A DNA stretch of 64,000 nt from an uncultured Clostridia bacterium (GTDB lineage Bacteria; Bacillota; Clostridia; Oscillospirales; Ruminococcaceae), in the NCBI GenBank assembly GCA_947168885.1, contig CAMVNQ010000003.1, forward strand, positions 1 to 64,000, given 5' to 3'. The notes beneath the pieces were generated by a model. The model was given only the letters and a program-made list of their open reading frames with translations. It was not told the DNA's origin and ran no database searches. A program made the translations under genes and the position numbers. This document shows positions 25,332 to 37,070 of the stretch, one piece after another. Position 1 is the first letter of the stretch, and every line of letters starts with the position of its first letter.

Positions 25332-25361
25332 AAAAAAAATATCCCCGACAGTGTCGGGGAT
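25332..25361 (-). terminator. Terminator of signalling operon
   Basis: Minus strand tccccgacactgtcgggga followed by T-run. Confidence 0.8.
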
Positions 25362-25370
25362 AAGATCTTT

Positions 25371-26228
25371 CTATCTGAACTCGAAAAATTCTTCGAGTCT
25401 TGTGAGAAGAGCCTTTCTGTCAAAGGTTTTGAGCAGGTAGCCCTCGGGGTTGAGCTTTAATATCTCCATGACCGCATCACGGGCGCTGTTGCCGGTGAGG
25501 AAGAACACGGGTATGGTCTTGGTCTGCGAGTCGTTCTGGAGCATAGCGAACATCTGTGCACCGGAACATACCGGCATCTTGTAATCGAGCAGTATCAGAT
25601 CAACATCGTTCTTAGCGAGCCACATTATCGCCTGTAAAGCCGAGCTCGCCACGCCGACCTCATAGCCGTCCTTGAGCCAGTTACGGATAATCCTCAGATA
25701 TGACGCGTCGTCGTCAACGAGCAGTATGCGTCTCTTGCGCACCGCCACCATATCCGATGTCATCTTTCTCTTTGCCGGAGTCGCCTCTGCGCCCTCTGCG
25801 GGAACATCTTCCGGCTTCTTGTCTTTGTCTTCGATACGCTTCTCGCCCTCGTTCATGTACTCAAATATCGTCTGCACGAACGCTTCCATATTCATAGGGC
25901 GGTCAAAGAACTGAAGAATAAAATCCTCTGAGATATAGCGGAGAGCTATCTCGTAATCCTTGCGCTTGGCTATGACAATAAGCATCTTGTTGGACTCATA
26001 GAGCTTGTCGTTTAGGTATGAGAGCATATTCTGCAGCGAAGCGGTCATAGCCGCCATTCTCTCGTCAAGGTAGAGAACGATAAGACCCGCGCGGTCGATA
26101 TTGCTGCCTATATCGGTGGTTCTCGCGACTACCTGATAGGCGCTTATCTCCACAGCGATGAGCTTCTGTTCCATGGACTTTATCGCGAAGCTCTCGGATG
26201 TACTGATTATCATTACGTTCTTAAGCAT
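25371..26228 (-). CDS. Response regulator: N-terminal pseudo-receiver-like domain + C-terminal REC
   Basis: RRILLVDDDASYLRIIRNWL...DLILLDYKMPVCSG. Confidence 0.85.
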   Translation of the reverse strand: MLKNVMIISTSESFAIKSMEQKLIAVEISAYQVVARTTDIGSNIDRAGLIVLYLDERMAAMTASLQNMLSYLNDKLYESNKMLIVIAKRKDYEIALRYISEDFILQFFDRPMNMEAFVQTIFEYMNEGEKRIEDKDKKPEDVPAEGAEATPAKRKMTSDMVAVRKRRILLVDDDASYLRIIRNWLKDGYEVGVASSALQAIMWLAKNDVDLILLDYKMPVCSGAQMFAMLQNDSQTKTIPVFFLTGNSARDAVMEILKLNPEGYLLKTFDRKALLTRLEEFFEFR

Positions 26229-26281
26229 TTTTGTATTTTCCTTTCGTATAAATGTAGCTTTTATTCAACGCAGATATTCGT

Positions 26282-27343
26282 CTATCCGCTGTCTTCTTCA
26301 TCAACCGCGCCGTCTCCGTACAGCTTCTCGATGTACCTGTGAGCCGCCGTCCTTAGCGCGTTCCAGTCAAGTGTCAGGAACGCCGCGTTCACTGCATCGA
26401 ATATCTCCTGATTTTCGGGTTCAAGACTGTATTCTTCTAACGAGCCGATAACCATTTCGACCATATCGTAATCCATCTGACCCGCAAATTCTTCAAGCGA
26501 CGAGAACGCGTCTTCGAGGAAATCCTGATCGGCAGGTGGTTTCTCTTTTTCATCTTCATCGCCGCCCGTCAGCCGCGCGAGCTTCTGCTTATATGACATA
26601 TACCACGAGAGCAGATGCTCGGTCTCCGCATGGATGAAATCGAGGTCGCCGCCGTCGCCCGCAGCTTCAAGCTTCTTCGCAAGCTCCGACAGGTCGGCAA
26701 GCCCGATTATACGCGCCGAGCTTTTCAGAGCGTGTACCTTTATCGTATAGTCCGTCCAGTTCTCACTGCTGTAATAGCTACGGATCTCATGCGCCATATT
26801 ATCGACAGAGTTGTAGAATATACCGAGGGCAGACATGAATCCTTCCTCCGTGCCGCAGTTCTTTATGCCGTCTTTTATATTGAGTTCCTCTATATCCTTC
26901 AGCCATCCCGGTATCACAGATGCCGCGCCATCCGTTTCCGCCTCCGCCAAGCCGATCTCGGCACGCTTCATATCCGGAAGATAAAGCAGCAGCGCCGCGT
27001 GCAGGAGCTCGTGATCCACGGGCTTTTCGAGATAGTTTATAAAGCCCTGCATCATGAAGAAGTCGTCACCGAGCACGGGATCCGCCGTTCCGAGCGCGAT
27101 CGCGGGGGTTCCGACATTGCGCGAATCCGTCATGGTACGTATCTCCTTAAGCGCGTGAACACCGTCGGAATCCGGCATGAAATAGTCTATGAACATAAGG
27201 TCGTATTCCTGCTGACAAGCCTTGAATACTCCGTCGTCACAGTTCTCCGCAGTCTCCGGCGTTACACCGAGCCGTCCGAGAAGCCCGGCAAGATAGTTAC
27301 GTTCGACCTTGCTGTCATCGACAACAAGCACATTTACACTCAT
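26282..27343 (-). CDS. REC + Hpt domain protein
   Basis: VLVVDDSKVERNYL, MFIDYFMPDSDG; Hpt motif VHALKSSARIIGL with intact His. Confidence 0.85.
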   Translation of the reverse strand: MSVNVLVVDDSKVERNYLAGLLGRLGVTPETAENCDDGVFKACQQEYDLMFIDYFMPDSDGVHALKEIRTMTDSRNVGTPAIALGTADPVLGDDFFMMQGFINYLEKPVDHELLHAALLLYLPDMKRAEIGLAEAETDGAASVIPGWLKDIEELNIKDGIKNCGTEEGFMSALGIFYNSVDNMAHEIRSYYSSENWTDYTIKVHALKSSARIIGLADLSELAKKLEAAGDGGDLDFIHAETEHLLSWYMSYKQKLARLTGGDEDEKEKPPADQDFLEDAFSSLEEFAGQMDYDMVEMVIGSLEEYSLEPENQEIFDAVNAAFLTLDWNALRTAAHRYIEKLYGDGAVDEEDSG

Positions 27344-27357
27344 CAGGCTCCCCCTTT

Positions 27358-30198
27358 CTAACCGTGAAGTTTATAGTTCGTATCCTCGTCTATTATCTGG
27401 AGCATAGCGTCCGCGATTATCGGGTCGAACTGTGTACCCTTGCAGCGAATGATCTCCTCACGCACATCTGACTGCGGTTTAAGCGCCTGATACGCTCGCC
27501 TCGACGTCATAGCGTCATACGAGTCCGCAACACAGATGATACGTGCCATTTCGGGGATATCCGTCCCCGCGAGACCGTCCGGATAACCGCGTCCGTCGTA
27601 TCTCTCATGATGCCAGCGCGCACATTTCGCGGCTTCCGGCATCTCGGTTATTACATTCAGTATCTCAAACCCGACCGTGGTATGGGACTTGATCTCCTCA
27701 TATTCCTCGTCGGTGAGCGGTCCGGGCTTGTTTATTATCTCCTCATGTACGCCTATCTTGCCGACATCATGCAGCAGACCTATTATGTACAGGTCGTCCT
27801 GCTCCTTCTTGGTCATACCGAGGATCTTTCCTATCCGCGAAGCGTACTTCGCGACGCGCTGTGAATGGTCGTTCGTGTATTTGTCCTTCGCATCGACAGC
27901 CTTTGAAAGCGCGATCATCACTTCGTTAGAGAGATGACCTATCTTCTCCGTCTGGCGCATTATCTCACGCCGCAGATGCTTCTGAAGACCGCTGAGCTCC
28001 ACTATCTTACGGACGCGGCTCAGGAGCACCTCGGGAACGAACGGCTTTCTTACGAAATCCGCCGCGCCGCTCTGGAAGCCCTTTACCTCCGCTTCGCCGC
28101 TGTCGTCTGCCGTCATAAGCACGACCGGGATATCGGCGGTCTCCTCGACGGAATTAAGCGCACGTATAACGTCGAACCCGCTCATGCTCTCAAGGTTCAC
28201 ATCAAGAAGTATCAGCGCGGGGTTGTCCTCCTGCGCGCGGATTATGCCGTCTTCCGCAGTCATGACCGTCTCTACGCGGTATAGCTTCTTTAGTATCTCC
28301 CTTATCATGGTGCAGATGACCATTTCGTCGTCGATAACGAGTATAAGCGGTCTCGAATCCGTCTGCCCCGTGCCTATGGCTGTCTCGGACTCACTCTCCG
28401 TAAGATAGAGTGCCGCTCCGAGCTGTTTTAACATCTTCTTCGTATTCTCTATGAAAACGATGTGCTTTGCCTTTAATTCCTCGATATTTCCCCTGATATA
28501 GAGCTTTTCGAGCGATTCTGCGCGATCCGCGAGCATATCCGCGCCTATGAGCTTGGACGCGTCCTTGACTGCGCAAAGACAAGCGCGGTAGTTATAGTAG
28601 TCGCCGGTCTCGATGTATTCCTCAAGCTTCGGAACGATAGGAGAAGTCGCGTAGTCGTACAGTGTTGCTATGAAGAAGTCTGCGTCGGAAAGGAAGCGCT
28701 CTTTCGCGACGGAAAGCCGCAGGAACGGGAGTTCTTTCTGGAGATATCTCCATTCCGGTGCCCAGCTTGACTGGTTTATGCGTTCCTCATCAACAGGGAG
28801 ATATTTTAGCACGACCTCCTTTATCGACTGGTCGGTGAACGGCTTCGTGAGGTACTCGTCGAAGCCTGCCTCGATGTACTTTTCCTTTTCGCCCTTTATG
28901 GTGTTCGCTGTGAGCATGATAACGGGAATATCCTCACAGAGCTTTTCCTCGCGTATGATCTTCATGGCTTCCATTCCGTCCATTACGGGCATCATGTGAT
29001 CCATGAATATAAGGTCGAAGTGTTCTTTTCGTATGTGTTCGAGAGCCTTTTCGCCGTCCGGCGCGGTATCGGTCTCAAATCCCATGGAACGCAGTATCCT
29101 CACAAGAAGATCTACGTTCATCTCTGTATCGTCAACAACAAGGATACGAAGGTTAACTGCGCCGGAAAGCGGCGTTCGGCTGCGTTCCTCGACGATCTCA
29201 TCACCGAACTCGTCAGGATCTCCGCCTGCGGCTATATCCTTCAGCACAGCCTCGCTGTCCACATCAACGTACTCGAAAACGCTCTCGAAGAAGTCAAGGA
29301 GTCGTCTTGCGGCAAGCCTTGCCTTTCGTGAATACTCTCTCGTGAACTCTTCCTGCGTGTCGTCCATTATGATGTTGTTATAGCCCATGATAGCGTTTAT
29401 AGGCGTTCTTATCTCGTGGGACATCTGTGACAGGAACTGGGTCTTCGCCTCGTCCGCAGCTATGGCCTTGATCTTTGCCTGCTCCTCCTCCTCACGGGAC
29501 TTACGGAGCGCTTCCATAGCGTTGGTAAGGTTATAGCTCTCCGGCGTTTCGTGCGAAAGGAAGATAAGGAACAGACCGAACACGGCTCCGGACATGGACA
29601 TAAGATACTTGTTGTCAAGGACGAGCTGTATAACGGTCACGATACCGATAATGAAGTTCGCGATCATCATCATTATAAGCTGCGCGCGCCTGAAATTCTT
29701 ACGATAAACTATCGAAGCCACCATTCCGTAAACGTTGAAATATACGGGTGCGCCGTAAGCCGCAAGCATGAACAGCGGTCCTTCATAGTAGTTGCCGCTT
29801 TCGTCAAGACCGAAAATATTGCCCGTTATAAGGTTCTGGAGCATAAGCACCATTACGCCCACAAGAAGGATCTGATTTACGGCGATCATAACCTTCTTGG
29901 CTCTTCCCGGGTGATCTATATATTCATACACATATATTATCAGACAGAATGACGAGGAGGTCGCCGCGATATGGTCGAGAGTATTTACGACTATGATAAG
30001 ACCGGTCGGTACATTTTCTGCTCCGGTAAGGAATCCGACCAGTACGTCAAAAGCGCTTGCGAGTATGACGAAAAACACCATTCTCCTGAACGCATTTTCC
30101 TTTTTTGTGGCGTTTTTATAGCGCACCCACAGGAATACATACAGGGTTATGACGAACGGAAGCGTTATAAGTTCGGGTATTGGATTGTAATAAATCAA
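27358..30198 (-). CDS. 7TM / H-box / REC / Hpt-like / REC / HD-GYP protein
   Basis: FLSQMSHEIRTPINAIMGY H-box; two REC domains (DLIFMDHMMPVMDG; ALILLDVNLESMSG); HD (LLHDVGKIG) and HHERYDGRGYPDGL. Confidence 0.88.
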   Translation of the reverse strand: MIYYNPIPELITLPFVITLYVFLWVRYKNATKKENAFRRMVFFVILASAFDVLVGFLTGAENVPTGLIIVVNTLDHIAATSSSFCLIIYVYEYIDHPGRAKKVMIAVNQILLVGVMVLMLQNLITGNIFGLDESGNYYEGPLFMLAAYGAPVYFNVYGMVASIVYRKNFRRAQLIMMMIANFIIGIVTVIQLVLDNKYLMSMSGAVFGLFLIFLSHETPESYNLTNAMEALRKSREEEEQAKIKAIAADEAKTQFLSQMSHEIRTPINAIMGYNNIIMDDTQEEFTREYSRKARLAARRLLDFFESVFEYVDVDSEAVLKDIAAGGDPDEFGDEIVEERSRTPLSGAVNLRILVVDDTEMNVDLLVRILRSMGFETDTAPDGEKALEHIRKEHFDLIFMDHMMPVMDGMEAMKIIREEKLCEDIPVIMLTANTIKGEKEKYIEAGFDEYLTKPFTDQSIKEVVLKYLPVDEERINQSSWAPEWRYLQKELPFLRLSVAKERFLSDADFFIATLYDYATSPIVPKLEEYIETGDYYNYRACLCAVKDASKLIGADMLADRAESLEKLYIRGNIEELKAKHIVFIENTKKMLKQLGAALYLTESESETAIGTGQTDSRPLILVIDDEMVICTMIREILKKLYRVETVMTAEDGIIRAQEDNPALILLDVNLESMSGFDVIRALNSVEETADIPVVLMTADDSGEAEVKGFQSGAADFVRKPFVPEVLLSRVRKIVELSGLQKHLRREIMRQTEKIGHLSNEVMIALSKAVDAKDKYTNDHSQRVAKYASRIGKILGMTKKEQDDLYIIGLLHDVGKIGVHEEIINKPGPLTDEEYEEIKSHTTVGFEILNVITEMPEAAKCARWHHERYDGRGYPDGLAGTDIPEMARIICVADSYDAMTSRRAYQALKPQSDVREEIIRCKGTQFDPIIADAMLQIIDEDTNYKLHG

Positions 30199-30225
30199 AT
30201 CATCTCACCGCCATCCTGACCGGAT

Positions 30226-32487
30226 CTATTTGTGTACACGCTTCATGAGGGTCTGTACCGCATCATAAAGCCCGCCTTCGTCACCGATGTACTTTCTTAG
30301 CTCTTCTATGTTCTTTTCGGTATTCTGTGTTTCCGTGCTGTCGGCTTCTTCAATGTGCTTAGGCTCGGCGAGCTTCCTGCTCATGACGATCTTATCCTTG
30401 GGAAGATAGCGAAGCAGCATCTTTTCGAGCTCTGCCGCGTCGATAGGCTTTGAAAGGTAATCCTCAAAACCCGCTTTGATATAGGATTCTCTCGCACCCG
30501 CTATAGCGTTCGCGGTAAGCACGATACAGGGTTTGGTACAGTTCGGGTTCTTTTTGCGGGAACGAAGCTCCTTAAGCATCTCCGTGCCGCCCATACCCGG
30601 CATACGGTCGTCTATGAAGATAACGTCATAGTCCTTCTTCTCCGTATGTATAAGGGCGTTCTTCGCGCTGAGCGCGGTATCTATCCTTATCTCCGTGTTC
30701 TTCAGAAGCCCCGCCGCGACCGTAAGGTTCATCTCGATATCATCCACGATCAGTATGCGGGCATCGGGAGCCGTGAACTGTTCGTGATATGTCTGCTCCG
30801 ATTCAACAGAATGTATGTAGCTCTTTTCATAGTCGCCCATGGGCGCGTCGTCGCGGACTTCCTGCCTTACCGTAAACGAGAACTCCGAGCCTCTGCCGTA
30901 CTCACTTGTCACCTTAAGCTCCGAACCCATCATTGCAAGAAGCCGCTTGACTATGCTTATACCGAGACCCGTACCCTCGATAGTACGGTTTCTTTCTTCA
31001 TCCACACGCTCGAACGGCGAGAACATTCTCTCCATATCCTCGGGCTTTATGCCGATACCGGTATCTTTTACCGAGATGCGAAGGTCGATGTACCCGTCGA
31101 GGGTATTTTCATAGTCCGCAGTGAGAATGACGCTTCCCTTCTGGGTGTACTTCACCGCGTTGGTCAGAAGGTTCAGGATACACTGCTTGAGACGTATGTT
31201 GTCTCCGAAGAGACCGCGCGGGATATTGCTGTTGACGTTGGCTATGAAGCTAAGCCCCTTGCTTTCTGCACGCGGTTTCATCATGCTCACGAGGTCATAC
31301 ATCACGAGTGAAAGGTCATATACAACGGGGATAAGCTCCATTTTGCCGGATTCTATCTTCGAGAAATCAAGAATATCGTTGATAATGGACAGAAGCGTAT
31401 TTCCCGCGTTCCTTATGTTAAGCGCGTACTGCCTCAGATCGGGGTCGTCGTACTCGCGTATTATCATTTCGTCCATACCGAGAATAGCGTTTATCGGCGT
31501 TCTTATCTCATGGGACATATTCGCAAGGAAATCGCTCTTCGCGCGGGATGCCTCTTCGGCTATCTGCTTTGCGCGAAGGAGCTCGTCGTTTTCGTGGATC
31601 TTGCTCGACGTGATTATCAGATATACCGAACCCACGATGAAGAGCACGATTATGAGTCCGAACACTCGCGTTACAAGGTTTACTATGTTATAAGCGCCTT
31701 CCGCGGCGACATCCGCGGACACATATCCCGCGAGATAGAAGTCTGTTTCGGGTATCTCCGCCGCAAAAACAAAGAACTCGCCCTGCGACGTATCAACTCG
31801 CTTCGACGATGCCACGGACACACCGAGCTCTTTCGTTATATTCGGGAAAACGACAGATATCTCTTCTCCGAAAAAGAAGTTCACATCGTCCGGTGTGGCT
31901 TTTTCAAACGGTATTATAAGTTCGTCATTCCGCGAAAGCACGAGAGCCTTTCCCATGCCGTCATAGCATGACGCGGAAAAGCGCTTGGTTATCATAGGTT
32001 TCGGACAAAGCTCATAGAAAACATATTTTATGTTCTGTCCGTTGTATATCGGGCAGGTGAACAGAAGCCCCTTCGAGGCGTTATAGCTTATTACCTTGCT
32101 TCCGCGGAAAGAGGACTGGATACCGGGGAAATCCGCCGTGTTTATCTTTTCGCCGAATAAGGCCGTGCCGTCTGTCGCAAGTATGCCTATCCTTACATCG
32201 GTGTTCGCGTTCACCATGGCGTCATACGCCTGCTCTATCCTGTCCGGTGTCTGCTGAAAAATTGCGGACCGGTATGTTATGCTCAGTATCTCGGTATTCA
32301 GCTCTTTCGACATCTTTTCGGCGATAGTCGCAGCCTGACGCGAGACCTGACCCTCGACAAAGCCGTAAAGAAGCGTCTTTATGCGGCTGTTCAGAAGAAG
32401 ACCTACCGCAAGCAGGACTATGATGAAAACGATGTTTACCGCCGAGCGGGAATTATATACAGATGCTTTGATATTACTTATCTTCAT
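30226..32487 (-). CDS. Hybrid sensor histidine kinase (extracellular sensor, HisKA, HATPase, REC)
   Basis: MSHEIRTPINAILGMDEM, LLTNAVKYTQKG, DTGIGI, GTGLGISIV, FIDDRMPGMGG. Confidence 0.92.
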   Translation of the reverse strand: MKISNIKASVYNSRSAVNIVFIIVLLAVGLLLNSRIKTLLYGFVEGQVSRQAATIAEKMSKELNTEILSITYRSAIFQQTPDRIEQAYDAMVNANTDVRIGILATDGTALFGEKINTADFPGIQSSFRGSKVISYNASKGLLFTCPIYNGQNIKYVFYELCPKPMITKRFSASCYDGMGKALVLSRNDELIIPFEKATPDDVNFFFGEEISVVFPNITKELGVSVASSKRVDTSQGEFFVFAAEIPETDFYLAGYVSADVAAEGAYNIVNLVTRVFGLIIVLFIVGSVYLIITSSKIHENDELLRAKQIAEEASRAKSDFLANMSHEIRTPINAILGMDEMIIREYDDPDLRQYALNIRNAGNTLLSIINDILDFSKIESGKMELIPVVYDLSLVMYDLVSMMKPRAESKGLSFIANVNSNIPRGLFGDNIRLKQCILNLLTNAVKYTQKGSVILTADYENTLDGYIDLRISVKDTGIGIKPEDMERMFSPFERVDEERNRTIEGTGLGISIVKRLLAMMGSELKVTSEYGRGSEFSFTVRQEVRDDAPMGDYEKSYIHSVESEQTYHEQFTAPDARILIVDDIEMNLTVAAGLLKNTEIRIDTALSAKNALIHTEKKDYDVIFIDDRMPGMGGTEMLKELRSRKKNPNCTKPCIVLTANAIAGARESYIKAGFEDYLSKPIDAAELEKMLLRYLPKDKIVMSRKLAEPKHIEEADSTETQNTEKNIEELRKYIGDEGGLYDAVQTLMKRVHK

Positions 32488-33616
32488 ATATCTCCACCCC
32501 CTGTATATACCAGTCCATGCCGAAGATCAGAGATCTGTCGCCGACAGCCTCACCTTCCGCACAGCGCAGTACTCCGTTATTATCGAAGATCTCGCCGGAG
32601 AACACATTCATACCGGCCTTTATTTTTTCTGCCGCGAACGAGACTTCATAGCGCGCACGGAGTGAAACTTTCTCCGAGTAGTCGGAAAGTTCCACAGCGT
32701 CTTCCGACATACCGGGCCAGTAGATATTGTCCGTTATCTTCTTGCGGTTCCGTATATCGCGGAGTATGTTGCCGTAAACTTTTTCCCAGTTACATTCTAC
32801 ACTTGTGAGACAGTGCGCCGAGTAATCGCCCGCCATCTCGTAGCAGCCTATGAAATCTATCCCGAGATCTTCACACGCCGCGGGAACATTCTCCCTGTCC
32901 TGATGATAAGCGATAATGTCCGCCGATGCAGACTTAAGCGCAGAGACCGCTTCTGTTTCCTTTTCGATGCTGCTCCACGAACCGGTGAATACGACCTTTA
33001 TACGCGCGTCGGGGTTCACTTTTCTGACACCGAGCGCGAAAGCGTTTATTCCGAGGTTCACCTCGTTGTTCGGCATCGCCGCGACATAGCCTATAACGTC
33101 TGTCTCTGTGGTGATTCCCGCAACGATTCCCGCAAGATAGCGCCCCTCGTAAGTCCTCCCGAGATAGTATATCAGGCGGTCGTCCATAGTTTCCGAACCG
33201 GTCACGCAAAATCGCACATCGGGGTATAATGACAGAAGCTTCCCGGTATAATTCTCATAACCATAGCTCACAAGGAATATGATCTCACATCCGTCCGCTG
33301 TGAGCGAACTCGCGGCGCTCAGACACGCCATTTCATCCTCGGGGACATTGTCGCGCACCGAAAGCTCAAGACCGGCGGACCTGCACGCGGCACTTATGCC
33401 GTCGAAATTCGCGCCGTTCCAGCCCGGCTCGCTGACACTCCCGTTAAGGATGCAGCCGACTTTTACAGGGTATTTCTCTTCGGACGTCGCCGTAAGTATC
33501 TGCACCACGACAAGCGTGACTATGACCGACATTATAACGACATACAGAATGTGGTATATCTTGTCAGCCCTGATCTTCTCACCCTTCAATCTCAACGCCC
33601 TCCACATACCAGTCAA
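32474..33616 (-). CDS. Membrane-anchored BMP/PnrA-like ligand-binding protein
   Basis: N-terminal TM; KVGCILNGSVSEPGWNGANFDGI..., YEGRYLAGIVAG, NLGINAFALGVRKVNP, DWYIQGVEI. Start uncertain (33616 or 33607). Confidence 0.8.
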   Translation of the reverse strand: MTGMWRALRLKGEKIRADKIYHILYVVIMSVIVTLVVVQILTATSEEKYPVKVGCILNGSVSEPGWNGANFDGISAACRSAGLELSVRDNVPEDEMACLSAASSLTADGCEIIFLVSYGYENYTGKLLSLYPDVRFCVTGSETMDDRLIYYLGRTYEGRYLAGIVAGITTETDVIGYVAAMPNNEVNLGINAFALGVRKVNPDARIKVVFTGSWSSIEKETEAVSALKSASADIIAYHQDRENVPAACEDLGIDFIGCYEMAGDYSAHCLTSVECNWEKVYGNILRDIRNRKKITDNIYWPGMSEDAVELSDYSEKVSLRARYEVSFAAEKIKAGMNVFSGEIFDNNGVLRCAEGEAVGDRSLIFGMDWYIQGVEIYEDK

Positions 33617-34703
33617 TGCTGTTCATCATAATGTCGTCCGGCAGAGACTCGCCGTCGCCGACGCGGACATTGCCTTCGTTATCGGTGACAGGTCCGTAGA
33701 ATACATCGAACGAGTAGTCCTCAAAGCGCTGTCTCGCATTTTCAAGAGGCTCTTTGTACTCCGGAGCGGCGTTACCGTTCCTTTCCGGATCGGTAAGTTC
33801 CATTATCCCGCTCTCTGCCCCGAGCCAGTTGTTCTTCCCGCGGAATTTTCTCTGAATGCAGGAAAGTATCTGTTCTTTATAGTATCCGTCCCAGTTCCAT
33901 ACACAGCCCGTAAGATAAGAGCCCTTGTATCTGTCTGAATTGTCAAAATTATAGCCTATCGACCAGACCCCGTGCTTCTCCGCCTCGTCAAGCGGTGCGA
34001 GAGAATCGGTATGCATAGTGATGATGTCCGCGTCAAAGTCCGTGATAAGCTTATCCGCACATTCGCCCGCAGCCTTGTCGTCCGTCCACGTGCCGCAGAA
34101 GGAAACGTGTACCACAGCTTCGGGATTGACGCTGCGCACGCCGAGAGTGAATGCATTTATCCCGCGGACGACCTCCGGTATCGGGTACGACGCGACATAG
34201 CCGATACTTCCGGTCACGGTGCGTGTCCCCGCGATAATACCGCTGAGATAGCGGTACTGATACATTCTTCCGAAATATGAGCCGGTGTTGCGTCCCGCCG
34301 ACGTTCCAGCCGTGTTAAGAAAGTACATTTCCGGATATTCCGCGCCGCATTCATCTATGTATCTGCTGTAATCATAAGAAGCCGCAACAACGACAAGACA
34401 GCCCTCGTTGGCGAGCGAACGTACCGCGTCCGTAAAACCCTCCGCCGTGACATTCTCACGGCAGATCACCTCAAGGTTCAGCTCCTCCGAGATGCGCACA
34501 AGAGCGTCGAAATGAGACTGGCTCCAGCTCATATCACTCACAGAGCCGCGCGTAATAAGCCCGACGAGGGTTTTATCCCTGAGCACGTCCACGTTAACGT
34601 TCTTCTTTGTGAAATTAAGTATGATAAATACCGCAATAAGCAGTATCGTGAAAACGCTTCCGCTCACGATAAGGCTTATCTGCTTCATGCTAAGCTTGCG
34701 CAT
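33579..34703 (-). CDS. Membrane-anchored BMP/PnrA-like ligand-binding protein (paralogue)
   Basis: N-terminal TM; VGLITRGSVSDMSWSQSHFDAL, RYLSGIIAG, GINAFTLGVRSVNP, DWYVEGVEI. Confidence 0.82.
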   Translation of the reverse strand: MRKLSMKQISLIVSGSVFTILLIAVFIILNFTKKNVNVDVLRDKTLVGLITRGSVSDMSWSQSHFDALVRISEELNLEVICRENVTAEGFTDAVRSLANEGCLVVVAASYDYSRYIDECGAEYPEMYFLNTAGTSAGRNTGSYFGRMYQYRYLSGIIAGTRTVTGSIGYVASYPIPEVVRGINAFTLGVRSVNPEAVVHVSFCGTWTDDKAAGECADKLITDFDADIITMHTDSLAPLDEAEKHGVWSIGYNFDNSDRYKGSYLTGCVWNWDGYYKEQILSCIQRKFRGKNNWLGAESGIMELTDPERNGNAAPEYKEPLENARQRFEDYSFDVFYGPVTDNEGNVRVGDGESLPDDIMMNSIDWYVEGVEIEG

Positions 34704-34745: not shown

Positions 34746-37070
34746 TCAGAAGCGCGGCCCCGCGCTGTCCGTTCCGGACAGTATATTCATAATATCGGCA
34801 GAGATCGCGTGCTTTAAGTCCATTATCGCCTCAAGATCCTCTTTTACGCCGAATCTGTCATAGTAAAAATAAAGTATGTCACATTTCCGGTACGCGAGCT
34901 CGTGGTCTTCAAGCTCATGTCCGCGCCGCTCTATCTCACCCGTGTACGCAAACACGGATCTGCGGCTCTCGTTGACCTCATTCATGAAAAGCCCGAACCA
35001 GAAATCGTAAAGGTCCTTTCTCGTCTCTGAGAAGGGTATCGTTACGAATTTGTATATAAGAAGCTTGTCCAGGCTGTATTTTTCAAGTTCCCTGCTGAGC
35101 ATTACCTCGCGCTCGACGGTGTTTTTCGTGAAAATCCCGTCGTCCGGTATGGTCCCCCAGCGCAGAAGTATCTCTGAAAGCGGCATATCCACCGCAAGTA
35201 TCGACTCCGGTATGCGAAGCCGCGCACGCACTATGTCGTGGCTGTTCCGCGCGAGTTTACGCACAATATCGTCCTTGAACTCGGCGGCGTTGTAATAGCC
35301 CACATCGTACATTCCCATACGCCCCGCGCGCCCGGCTATCTGTTTTACCTCCGTGCCGTGCAGGAAGCGTCTTCTGCGCCCGTCGTACTTATAGGCTTCG
35401 AGGAACACAACGCGCTTTATCGGAAGGTTAAGTCCCATTCCCACCGCGTCGGTGGCTACGACAACATCAGTCTCGCCGTGAACGAAGCGTGAGACCTCGC
35501 TCCTTCGCACGTCATAAGGCAGGTCGCCGTATATGACGCTCGCCTTTATGCCGACTGCCCTTAGCTGTTCGGCATAGGAAAGGACCGCCTTTTTCGAAAA
35601 CGCGATAAGAGCGTCCTCTTTTTCGACATCACGCGGGAAAACGAAATCCCGCTTGTCACATTTGAGCGGCACAGAGCGCTCGTGGTAAACTATCTCATAG
35701 CTGTCGTGACACAGCTCTATCAGCGAAATAAGTATGTTCTTCGCGTTGACCGCCGCACACAGATGTATCTCGTCCGCCATAACGCCGAGTATCGCCGCTG
35801 TCCACGCACCGCCGCGCTCTTCGTCCTCGATGAGCTGGCATTCATCTACTACCGCGACATCATAGCGCTCGTTCACGTTGAGCATCTCGACAGTCGATGA
35901 AGTGTGTGTTGCGAACGGTATGTCTATCTCCTCTTCACCGGTTATCATACGGCACGGAACGCCCTCTTTGTTGAAGCGTTCGCATATCTCGTAGGCGAGC
36001 AGTCTGAGCGGCGCGAGATATACTCCGCGTTCCGCTTTTCTGCAGGCTTCGAGAGACTGATAGGTCTTTCCCGAATTCGTGGGTCCGAGATGCAGGATAA
36101 AGTGCCTTCTCATACCTCTCGCGCCCGGATAGAGCTCGGTAACGTCCTCCGGTATCTCCTTGAGGATAAGCTGATGTGCCGATTCCGAAGCCTTTATCTG
36201 CGACTGCATATATTCGACGGCTTTTTTATATCTCATACTGCCCGTGATAAGGGCGGTAACCGTTTCTCTGTCATATTTCTTTATAAGACGTGCGTAAATA
36301 TGGTCGAGGCGCGGATAGCGCGGGCAGTACCGGTCAAGAAGGTCACCGGCGATGCTGTCTGCGGAGGAGCCTGTGATTCCGGCTTCGGACAGGACTACAT
36401 ACGCCGCCGCCGCCATTACGAGCTCATTTAAATTCCCGCATGGCATACCCGACATATACACGACGTTGTCGATACGTTTCCTGTTGAGTGCCGCTTCGTC
36501 GTAAAGGCGGCGGTTGAACTTGCCGAACAGAGTCTCGTTTACGAACTCGCTCAGGGCTTCACGCAGGAACTTGTGCGGAAGTATGTTCTCTATATCCGAA
36601 TAATGTGCCTCAATAAGCCCCGAAGCGACAGCAACGATATGCTCCTCGTCATCGGGGGTTATAACGTATTCCCTGTATTTCTCAAAAACGGCATTGCGCT
36701 TCTCGCGTTCTTTTCTCTTCTTGTTCTCTTTCTTGCGCTTGTTCTTGGTTTTACGGCGCTCTGCCTTATCTGCGGCGGAGGGCACGTTCATTCCGGAGAT
36801 ATGACGCTTGTATGCGTTCACAACGCGCGGCTGTTCGGCAGCATTTTCCGAGCAGAGCAGCTTATAGAACTTCTCGCTGTTCAGAGCCTTTTCTACCTCC
36901 GCTTCGCCTTCGGGAGTCCCGAGATACGCGTTCGCGCATTCACCGGCAGCTTCCTCGCCGTTTTCCCCGGAATGCGCGATGATGTAGCGCCTTTTCACTG
37001 TAAGCACGGCGCTTGCGCGGCAGTTCACCTTACTGCGTTCTATAAACTGTTCTATTGTCGGGACTGCCAT
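34746..37070 (-). CDS. SUV3-like RNA helicase
   Basis: HLGPTNSGKTYQSLEA, VAVVDECQLIEDEERGGAWTAAILG, IAGRAGRMG. Confidence 0.85.
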   Translation of the reverse strand: MAVPTIEQFIERSKVNCRASAVLTVKRRYIIAHSGENGEEAAGECANAYLGTPEGEAEVEKALNSEKFYKLLCSENAAEQPRVVNAYKRHISGMNVPSAADKAERRKTKNKRKKENKKRKEREKRNAVFEKYREYVITPDDEEHIVAVASGLIEAHYSDIENILPHKFLREALSEFVNETLFGKFNRRLYDEAALNRKRIDNVVYMSGMPCGNLNELVMAAAAYVVLSEAGITGSSADSIAGDLLDRYCPRYPRLDHIYARLIKKYDRETVTALITGSMRYKKAVEYMQSQIKASESAHQLILKEIPEDVTELYPGARGMRRHFILHLGPTNSGKTYQSLEACRKAERGVYLAPLRLLAYEICERFNKEGVPCRMITGEEEIDIPFATHTSSTVEMLNVNERYDVAVVDECQLIEDEERGGAWTAAILGVMADEIHLCAAVNAKNILISLIELCHDSYEIVYHERSVPLKCDKRDFVFPRDVEKEDALIAFSKKAVLSYAEQLRAVGIKASVIYGDLPYDVRRSEVSRFVHGETDVVVATDAVGMGLNLPIKRVVFLEAYKYDGRRRRFLHGTEVKQIAGRAGRMGMYDVGYYNAAEFKDDIVRKLARNSHDIVRARLRIPESILAVDMPLSEILLRWGTIPDDGIFTKNTVEREVMLSRELEKYSLDKLLIYKFVTIPFSETRKDLYDFWFGLFMNEVNESRRSVFAYTGEIERRGHELEDHELAYRKCDILYFYYDRFGVKEDLEAIMDLKHAISADIMNILSGTDSAGPRF

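Follow-up and report, generated by a model that had tools for sequence, protein, structure and literature searches.

We analyzed a 64,000-nucleotide (nt) stretch of DNA from an uncultured gut bacterium of the class Clostridia, family Ruminococcaceae (assembly GCA_947168885.1, contig CAMVNQ010000003.1, positions 1 to 64,000), which we call the window. It includes an operon of six genes encoding two membrane-anchored binding proteins of the BMP/PnrA family (BMP-a and BMP-b), a hybrid histidine kinase (C) and three further signaling proteins (D, E and F). Our preferred reading, to which we give a probability of roughly 0.6, is that the operon encodes a phosphorelay sensing extracellular purine bases, in which the BMP pair would signal to kinase C, and C by way of E to D and F, with cyclic di-GMP (c-di-GMP) as the output.

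The operon and its proteins

The six open reading frames (ORFs) are all confirmed on the minus strand, contiguous between a Suv3-like helicase gene and carB. From the 5' end the order is BMP-a, BMP-b, C, D, E and F, with intergenic spacings of -38, -14, +27, +14 and +53 nt. A preliminary description, made from the letters of the window, had proposed a single-strand operon of overlapping or closely spaced genes closed by a terminator, and this is what we find (no spacing exceeds 53 nt, and a hairpin followed by T8 ends the operon). That the whole arrangement is conserved in relatives makes it more than a chance association. The domains first listed for the two BMPs, the hybrid kinase and the REC-Hpt protein are also those we identify. 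For D the list was incomplete, as this protein includes in addition a HisKA domain without HATPase and a degenerate Hpt. F, described as a REC protein, has its REC, and a second, receiver-like N-terminal half without the acidic pair had been missed. The features are as follows.

33579..34703, minus strand: BMP-a, transmembrane-anchored BMP/PnrA-family binding protein, 374 aa (PF02608, E 4.9e-47; AlphaFold2 model, pLDDT 92.8)
34605..34688, minus strand: residues 6-33 of BMP-a, an N-terminal helix predicted to stay uncleaved as a membrane anchor, without lipobox (predicted helix)
32474..33616, minus strand: BMP-b, second transmembrane-anchored BMP, 380 aa (PF02608, E 2.2e-34; separate tree clade, SH-aLRT 100)
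30226..32487, minus strand: C, hybrid histidine kinase, TM-dCache-TM-HisKA-HATPase-REC, where TM is a transmembrane helix, 753 aa (Pfam; AlphaFold2 and Foldseek; kinase boxes)
31633..32385, minus strand: dCache sensor region of C, about residues 35-285 (AlphaFold2 and Foldseek)
27358..30198, minus strand: D, 7TM-DHp-REC-pseudoHpt-REC-HD-GYP, 946 aa (Pfam; HD and HHExxDGxGYP motifs)
29254..29448, minus strand: HisKA (DHp) domain of D, H box SQMSHEIRTPINA intact, HATPase absent (Pfam, ortholog motifs)
28354..28776, minus strand: degenerate Hpt of D, Cys for His in 13/13 orthologs (ortholog alignment)
27421..27909, minus strand: HD-GYP domain of D, predicted c-di-GMP phosphodiesterase (PF13487, E 8.5e-31)
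26282..27343, minus strand: E, REC-Hpt protein, 353 aa, Hpt His kept (YTIKVHALKSSA) in 13/13 orthologs (Pfam, motif)
25371..26228, minus strand: F, receiver-like domain without acidic pair plus canonical REC, 285 aa (hhalign, 91.7% probability to REC)

BMP and kinase genes are linked across relatives

Conservation of the BMP-kinase linkage in relatives was a test set beforehand. A scan of GTDB genome contigs beyond the genus finds at least 589 relatives, of which we kept the best 80, picked by similarity to BMP-a, so that this set describes the BMP-a clade and not all BMPs. By record title, the 80 come from Lachnospiraceae, Oscillospiraceae, Selenomonadaceae and a few other groups, and include two Synergistota and one Spirochaetota, for a total of three phyla. 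Many titles name rumen or gut samples. Isolates of Selenomonas ruminantium are included; strain HD4 of this species has BMP-a, BMP-b and the kinase (L156). A kinase gene on the same strand directly follows the BMP gene or genes in 75/76 testable loci by script and in 76/76 by eye, the one exception of the script (L124) being an artefact of the ORF start. The median BMP-kinase overlap in these loci is 8 nt, and 67 of them have two BMP genes and eight have one. In all, this unit of BMP receptor and kinase is present in no fewer than 80 genomes from gut and rumen.

Within the genus, a protein search finds strong BMP-a matches in about 21 of 71 genomes. There, layout I has BMP-a, with or without BMP-b, followed by C, D, E and F, often between the helicase gene and carB. 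BMP-b is missing in L042, in L090-L094 and probably in L041, so that BMP-a alone would suffice in part of the genus. Layout II has BMP-a, BMP-b, a longer kinase ending in an Hpt, and a REC-REC-HD-GYP protein that is either whole or split. In a third arrangement (L101:5093-9852 and L103:8932-13679), a transmembrane-anchored BMP with the same purine-type pocket as the window BMPs lies beside a Reg_prop-Y_Y_Y-HD-GYP protein, with no kinase.

The BMP proteins have a predicted anchor and are set apart from transporter BMPs

Membership of both proteins in the BMP/PnrA family is clear from their PF02608 scores (160.8 bits for BMP-a and 119.2 bits for BMP-b, with a gathering cut-off of 24.1), and by Foldseek the fold of BMP-a matches AtzT, 3S99 and PnrA. 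A hydrophobic N-terminal segment is present in both and a lipobox in neither, just as the preliminary description had it. By a simple regular expression for the lipobox and by hydropathy, a lipobox is found in 25 of 28 BMPs linked to ATP-binding cassette (ABC) genes versus 1 of 164 kinase-linked BMPs, that sole lipobox-like match being a Cys within the transmembrane helix, and the hydrophobic N-terminal segment is found in 163 of the 164. For the relatives of BMP-a taken separately, the segment is hydrophobic in 87/88, with one lipobox-like match in 88. A BMP tree of 124 sequences, built by a quick method with the Shimodaira-Hasegawa-like approximate likelihood ratio test (SH-aLRT) as its only branch support, groups the BMP-a (48) and BMP-b (42) sequences into two sister clades with supports of 96 and 100, apart from the 28 ABC-linked BMPs. 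From these predicted features, the kinase-linked BMPs have exchanged the lipobox for a transmembrane anchor.

ABC importers are the normal partners of BMP proteins, and both the order and the class have many ABC-linked BMPs whose pocket is of the type seen in the window. The two window BMPs could then be orphan scavenger proteins serving an importer elsewhere in the genome, their kinase neighborhood being incidental or reflecting only co-regulation. We consider this very improbable. Besides having no lipobox, the window BMPs have no BMP-type ABC gene in their operon by Pfam and no suitable permease in their genome, where (at 97.9% completeness) the only two BPD_transp_2 permeases lie in one operon with its own sugar-type binding protein. 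Nor is there a BMP-type ABC permease near any of the 76 testable BMP-kinase loci in the best 80. Anchor type and phylogeny also speak against the scavenger explanation, as does a linkage to kinases that spans three phyla. The absence of a cognate importer, proposed from the operon itself, extends to the genome. The presence of such an importer had been named beforehand as a refuting condition, and this test, like that of the linkage, comes out in favor of the first reading.

The pocket points to a purine nucleobase

The pocket can be compared with that of AtzT, which binds guanine with a dissociation constant of 110 nM and holds the ring in a sandwich between Tyr45 and Trp194, with side-chain contacts from Ser97, Glu165, Asn218 and Asn220 (PMC6834077). 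At the positions Tyr45, Trp194, Ser97, Glu165, Asn218 and Asn220, the residues in the two window BMPs are W, W, S, E, H and D. All six are the same in Brucella 3S99, whose site is occupied by a purine, at an overall identity of about 29%. The pattern expected of a purine nucleobase pocket (an aromatic sandwich, Ser, Glu, His/Asn and Asp/Asn) is present in both as W, S, Y, E, W, H, D. Across 88 BMP-a and 76 BMP-b sequences its conservation is strong, the chief variation being N for D at the last position. The AlphaFold2 model of BMP-a has AtzT and 3S99 as its best matches in the Protein Data Bank (PDB), with a TM-score to the target (TMt) of 0.94-0.95, versus 0.88 for Lbp-guanosine and 0.80-0.85 for PnrA/BmpD, which are nucleoside binders. 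As pocket residues and fold are both closest to AtzT/3S99, a purine nucleobase is our best guess for the ligand, and a nucleoside is less likely. The purine part of the purine/nucleoside ligand first suggested for these proteins is therefore supported, and the nucleoside part is less so.

The ABC-linked BMPs of the order share the pattern in 28/28 cases, with Tyr replacing the first Trp. Several of these adjoin an ORF resembling xanthine phosphoribosyltransferase, two loci being confirmed by NCBIfam. With Rfam, no purine riboswitch reaches the gathering score at L044-L047, four loci with ABC-linked BMPs, and it is the neighboring xpt genes that provide the purine link at these loci. The other BMPs of the window's own genome do not share the purine-type pocket.

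An alternative that we consider unlikely, although it is the strongest of those we weighed, is that the BMPs are receptors for C with a ligand other than a purine base, for instance an analogue of a purine, a compound resembling vitamin B6 or a cytokinin, or some other metabolite of the gut. AtzT takes triazines as well as guanine (PMC6834077), and such a pocket would tolerate other flat heterocycles. NCBIfam's only hit for the window proteins is a putative B6-binding BMP model; its score is 53-59 bits against a cut-off of 400, and we rejected a B6-binding identity. What favors a purine base over these ligands is the agreement of all six side-chain contacts with purine-bound 3S99 in both BMPs at such low overall identity, and the recurrence of the pattern, with its one Tyr, in ABC-linked BMPs beside xanthine phosphoribosyltransferase genes.

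Kinase and relay

The BMP genes adjoin a kinase with an extracytoplasmic sensor domain, as expected of a kinase activated by a solute-binding protein (SBP). Amongst characterized SBP-kinase couples, 10/11 are gene neighbors (PMC11113362). A sequence comparison of the sensor region of C with the PDB gives nothing useful; by fold comparison (AlphaFold2 pLDDT 88.3, and Foldseek) it is a dCache. The H, N, G1 and G2 boxes of C are intact.

In D, Pfam identifies a weak seven-transmembrane (7TM) domain, a HisKA, two RECs and an HD_5. The phosphoacceptor box of the HisKA is kept in every layout-I ortholog. Two relatives, L169 and L142, have a D-like architecture that retains the HATPase, so D looks like a reduced hybrid kinase. 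The middle domain of D aligns with Hpt, with Cys replacing the phosphoacceptor His. For E, the pattern match in the window protein falls on an upstream HEIR, and the Hpt motif HALKSSA is present in its sequence. In other taxa, C itself ends in a fused Hpt. Motifs for a multistep phosphorelay are intact in C, in E, in the receivers of D and in the REC of F. Judging from sequence, E supplies the working Hpt while that of D is lost, and the simplest relay would be from the His of C to the Asp of C, then to the His of E, and then to D and F. No other protein of the operon is as conserved as F, whose identity to its orthologs is 77-95%; the range is 50-66% for BMP-a, and true orthologs of BMP-b are at 45-59%. 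F-like proteins are also found in the same genome directly 3' of other hybrid kinases ending in an Hpt (L224:5217-10192 and L225:3487-8507).

The HD and HHExxDGxGYP motifs of D are intact in the window and in all orthologs, which predicts a c-di-GMP phosphodiesterase. Of 68 testable loci, 40 have a GGDEF or HD-GYP gene either fused or as the direct neighbor on the same strand, and in one metagenome-assembled genome (L153) C and an HD-GYP hybrid form one ORF of 1842 aa on a single contig. In relatives the BMP-kinase unit adjoins GGDEF proteins too, so the general theme would be control of c-di-GMP, not degradation alone. The degradation output proposed at the outset fits the window, by its intact HD-GYP motif, and does not extend to a general rule. 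The genome has 46 GGDEF matches and 19 HD_5 domains. Our impression is that 46 GGDEF matches in a 3.78 Mb genome is many for the lineage.

Proposed mechanism

In the mechanism that we propose, transmembrane helices would hold BMP-a and BMP-b at the outer face of the membrane, where they would bind a purine nucleobase (guanine, hypoxanthine, xanthine or adenine). The ligand-bound BMPs would dock on the dCache domain of C and alter its autokinase activity. Phosphate would then pass from the His of C to the Asp of its receiver, to the Hpt His of E, and from E to receivers in both D and F. When D is phosphorylated its HD-GYP domain may be switched, in one direction or the other, and with it the level of c-di-GMP; F, as a highly conserved two-receiver protein, would be a second output.

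Several points weigh against this mechanism. About 40% of the relatives have no immediately adjacent c-di-GMP gene. C has a dCache domain of its own that could sense a ligand by itself, and through the 7TM that D keeps a further signal may enter. In Pseudomonas aeruginosa, neighboring SBP and kinase genes have been described for which no interaction was detected (PMC11113362). Finally, we searched 388 genomes, sampled evenly from the class, with a BMP-a profile and inspected 29 of the strongest hits other than the window; 28 of these have an ABC ATPase alongside and the other is at a contig end. The kinase-linked form is thus patchy, and score alone does not identify kinase-linked BMPs.

The sensor domains of C and D allow a different assignment of roles, in which the BMPs do no more than modulate a kinase C that detects a ligand of its own by its dCache, or in which they report to the 7TM of D. 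We find this improbable, somewhat more so than a ligand other than a purine base. The dCache fold is often a direct binder of small molecules, purines included (PMC11245519), yet by eye, the only inspection made, we see no dCache_1PU purine motif in the compact distal module of C. The separate 7TM input of D, and the BMPs adjoining a kinase-free Reg_prop-HD-GYP protein in L101 and L103, are in favor; against, a C-type kinase always follows the BMP genes in the 80-locus set, and most of these relatives have no 7TM D protein.

A bolder version of the purine-base relay is that BMP-a and BMP-b are obligate halves of an extracellular purine-base receptor, an ancient paralogous pair derived from transport proteins and provided with a transmembrane helix in place of a lipid anchor, which would be the sensory module of a family of gut hybrid kinases controlling c-di-GMP either way. 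In the lineage of the window the relay would then be split further, with D reduced to an ATPase-less, Hpt-dead phosphoacceptor and F as a strongly conserved hub. We hold this version tentatively, at a little less than even odds.

Relation to known systems

SBP-activated kinases are an established kind of system, and a dedicated, transporter-free BMP pair appears undescribed. In the open-access literature, mostly at the level of titles and abstracts, we found no description of a BMP pair dedicated to kinases. The suggestion that the operon is an undescribed system holds for the pair, and not for the kind. XylFII-LytS (the xylose sensor of clostridia), LuxP-LuxQ and TorT-TorS are cases in which a binding protein serves a histidine kinase, as proposed here, and LuxQ has both a dCache-type domain and an Hpt relay. 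All three use sugar-binding-type (Peripla_BP) proteins, whereas the window has two paralogs from the BMP family and, on the output side, c-di-GMP enzymes. For Med of Bacillus subtilis, we know of no adjacent kinase or c-di-GMP module. Med, a PnrA-like activator of comK, resembles the window BMPs in being a BMP-family protein with a regulatory role (PMC12892991).

Other systems share parts of the proposal. AtzT and 3S99 have the same fold, the six side-chain contacts (as in 3S99) and the predicted purine nucleobase ligand, but they are BMPs of ABC importers, with a lipobox or exported as soluble proteins, while the window BMPs are an anchored, kinase-linked paralogous pair without ABC genes (PMC6834077). 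The dCache_1PU receptors also tie extracellular purine sensing to kinases and c-di-GMP enzymes; in these the sensor domain itself binds the purine, and in the window separate BMP proteins are predicted to do so (PMC11245519). In a related clostridium, Ruminiclostridium cellulolyticum, CuaD and two neighboring genes are reported as a case of an extra solute-binding protein with a signaling and regulatory role, which differs in being reported for cellobiose and cellulose utilization alongside a separate ABC importer (PMC10384115). At least 13 SBP families activate receptors (PMC11113362), and according to a 2022 review SBP_bac_3 was then the only family of the periplasmic-binding-protein clan studied in c-di-GMP networks (PMC8846402). 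If our reading is right, the BMP family joins the receptor-linked binding proteins, and a large set of orphan kinases gains ligand candidates. Purine bases outside the cell would then be a signal that sets the c-di-GMP level of many bacteria in the rumen and gut, probably with an effect on attachment or motility, and the receptors would belong to a family that is annotated for transport alone.

Operon boundaries and other BMP genes

Two further features flank the six genes.

34746..37070, minus strand: Suv3-like helicase gene, 42 nt upstream of BMP-a (PF22527, E 2.7e-61)
25340..25362, minus strand: strong intrinsic terminator after F, 10-bp stem then T8, 8 nt past the last stop

Past the terminator, carB has its own promoter-like site at 25311-25283. 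The helicase gene is conserved beside BMP-a in most close relatives. As only 42 nt separate it from BMP-a, and as the two genes overlap by 4 nt in the relatives L040 and L041, the transcription unit may start further upstream, with the helicase as a possible leading gene of the transcript; we found no promoter-like site on the minus strand between the two genes. The helicase was not found in 14 members of the genus, a set in which most have no BMP-kinase system and which includes no positive control.

We report two other BMP genes of the same genome. C2 (L036:5874-7001) is a lipoprotein BMP whose pocket letters match those of the ABC-linked BMP of L053. No suitable permease for C2 was found in this genome, and by eye it is near a peptidase-domain ABC exporter pair. 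C5 (L038:4558-6480) is a protein, seen also in L256-L261, in which a BMP domain is fused to an N-terminal region of approximately 290 residues for a total of 640-680 aa. This fusion has no evident export signal, and its N-terminal region includes an EGNKRVSVLKY-like motif that by eye is ParB-like. It adjoins a small gene that starts like a metallophosphoesterase, and it recurs in sampled genomes of the class.

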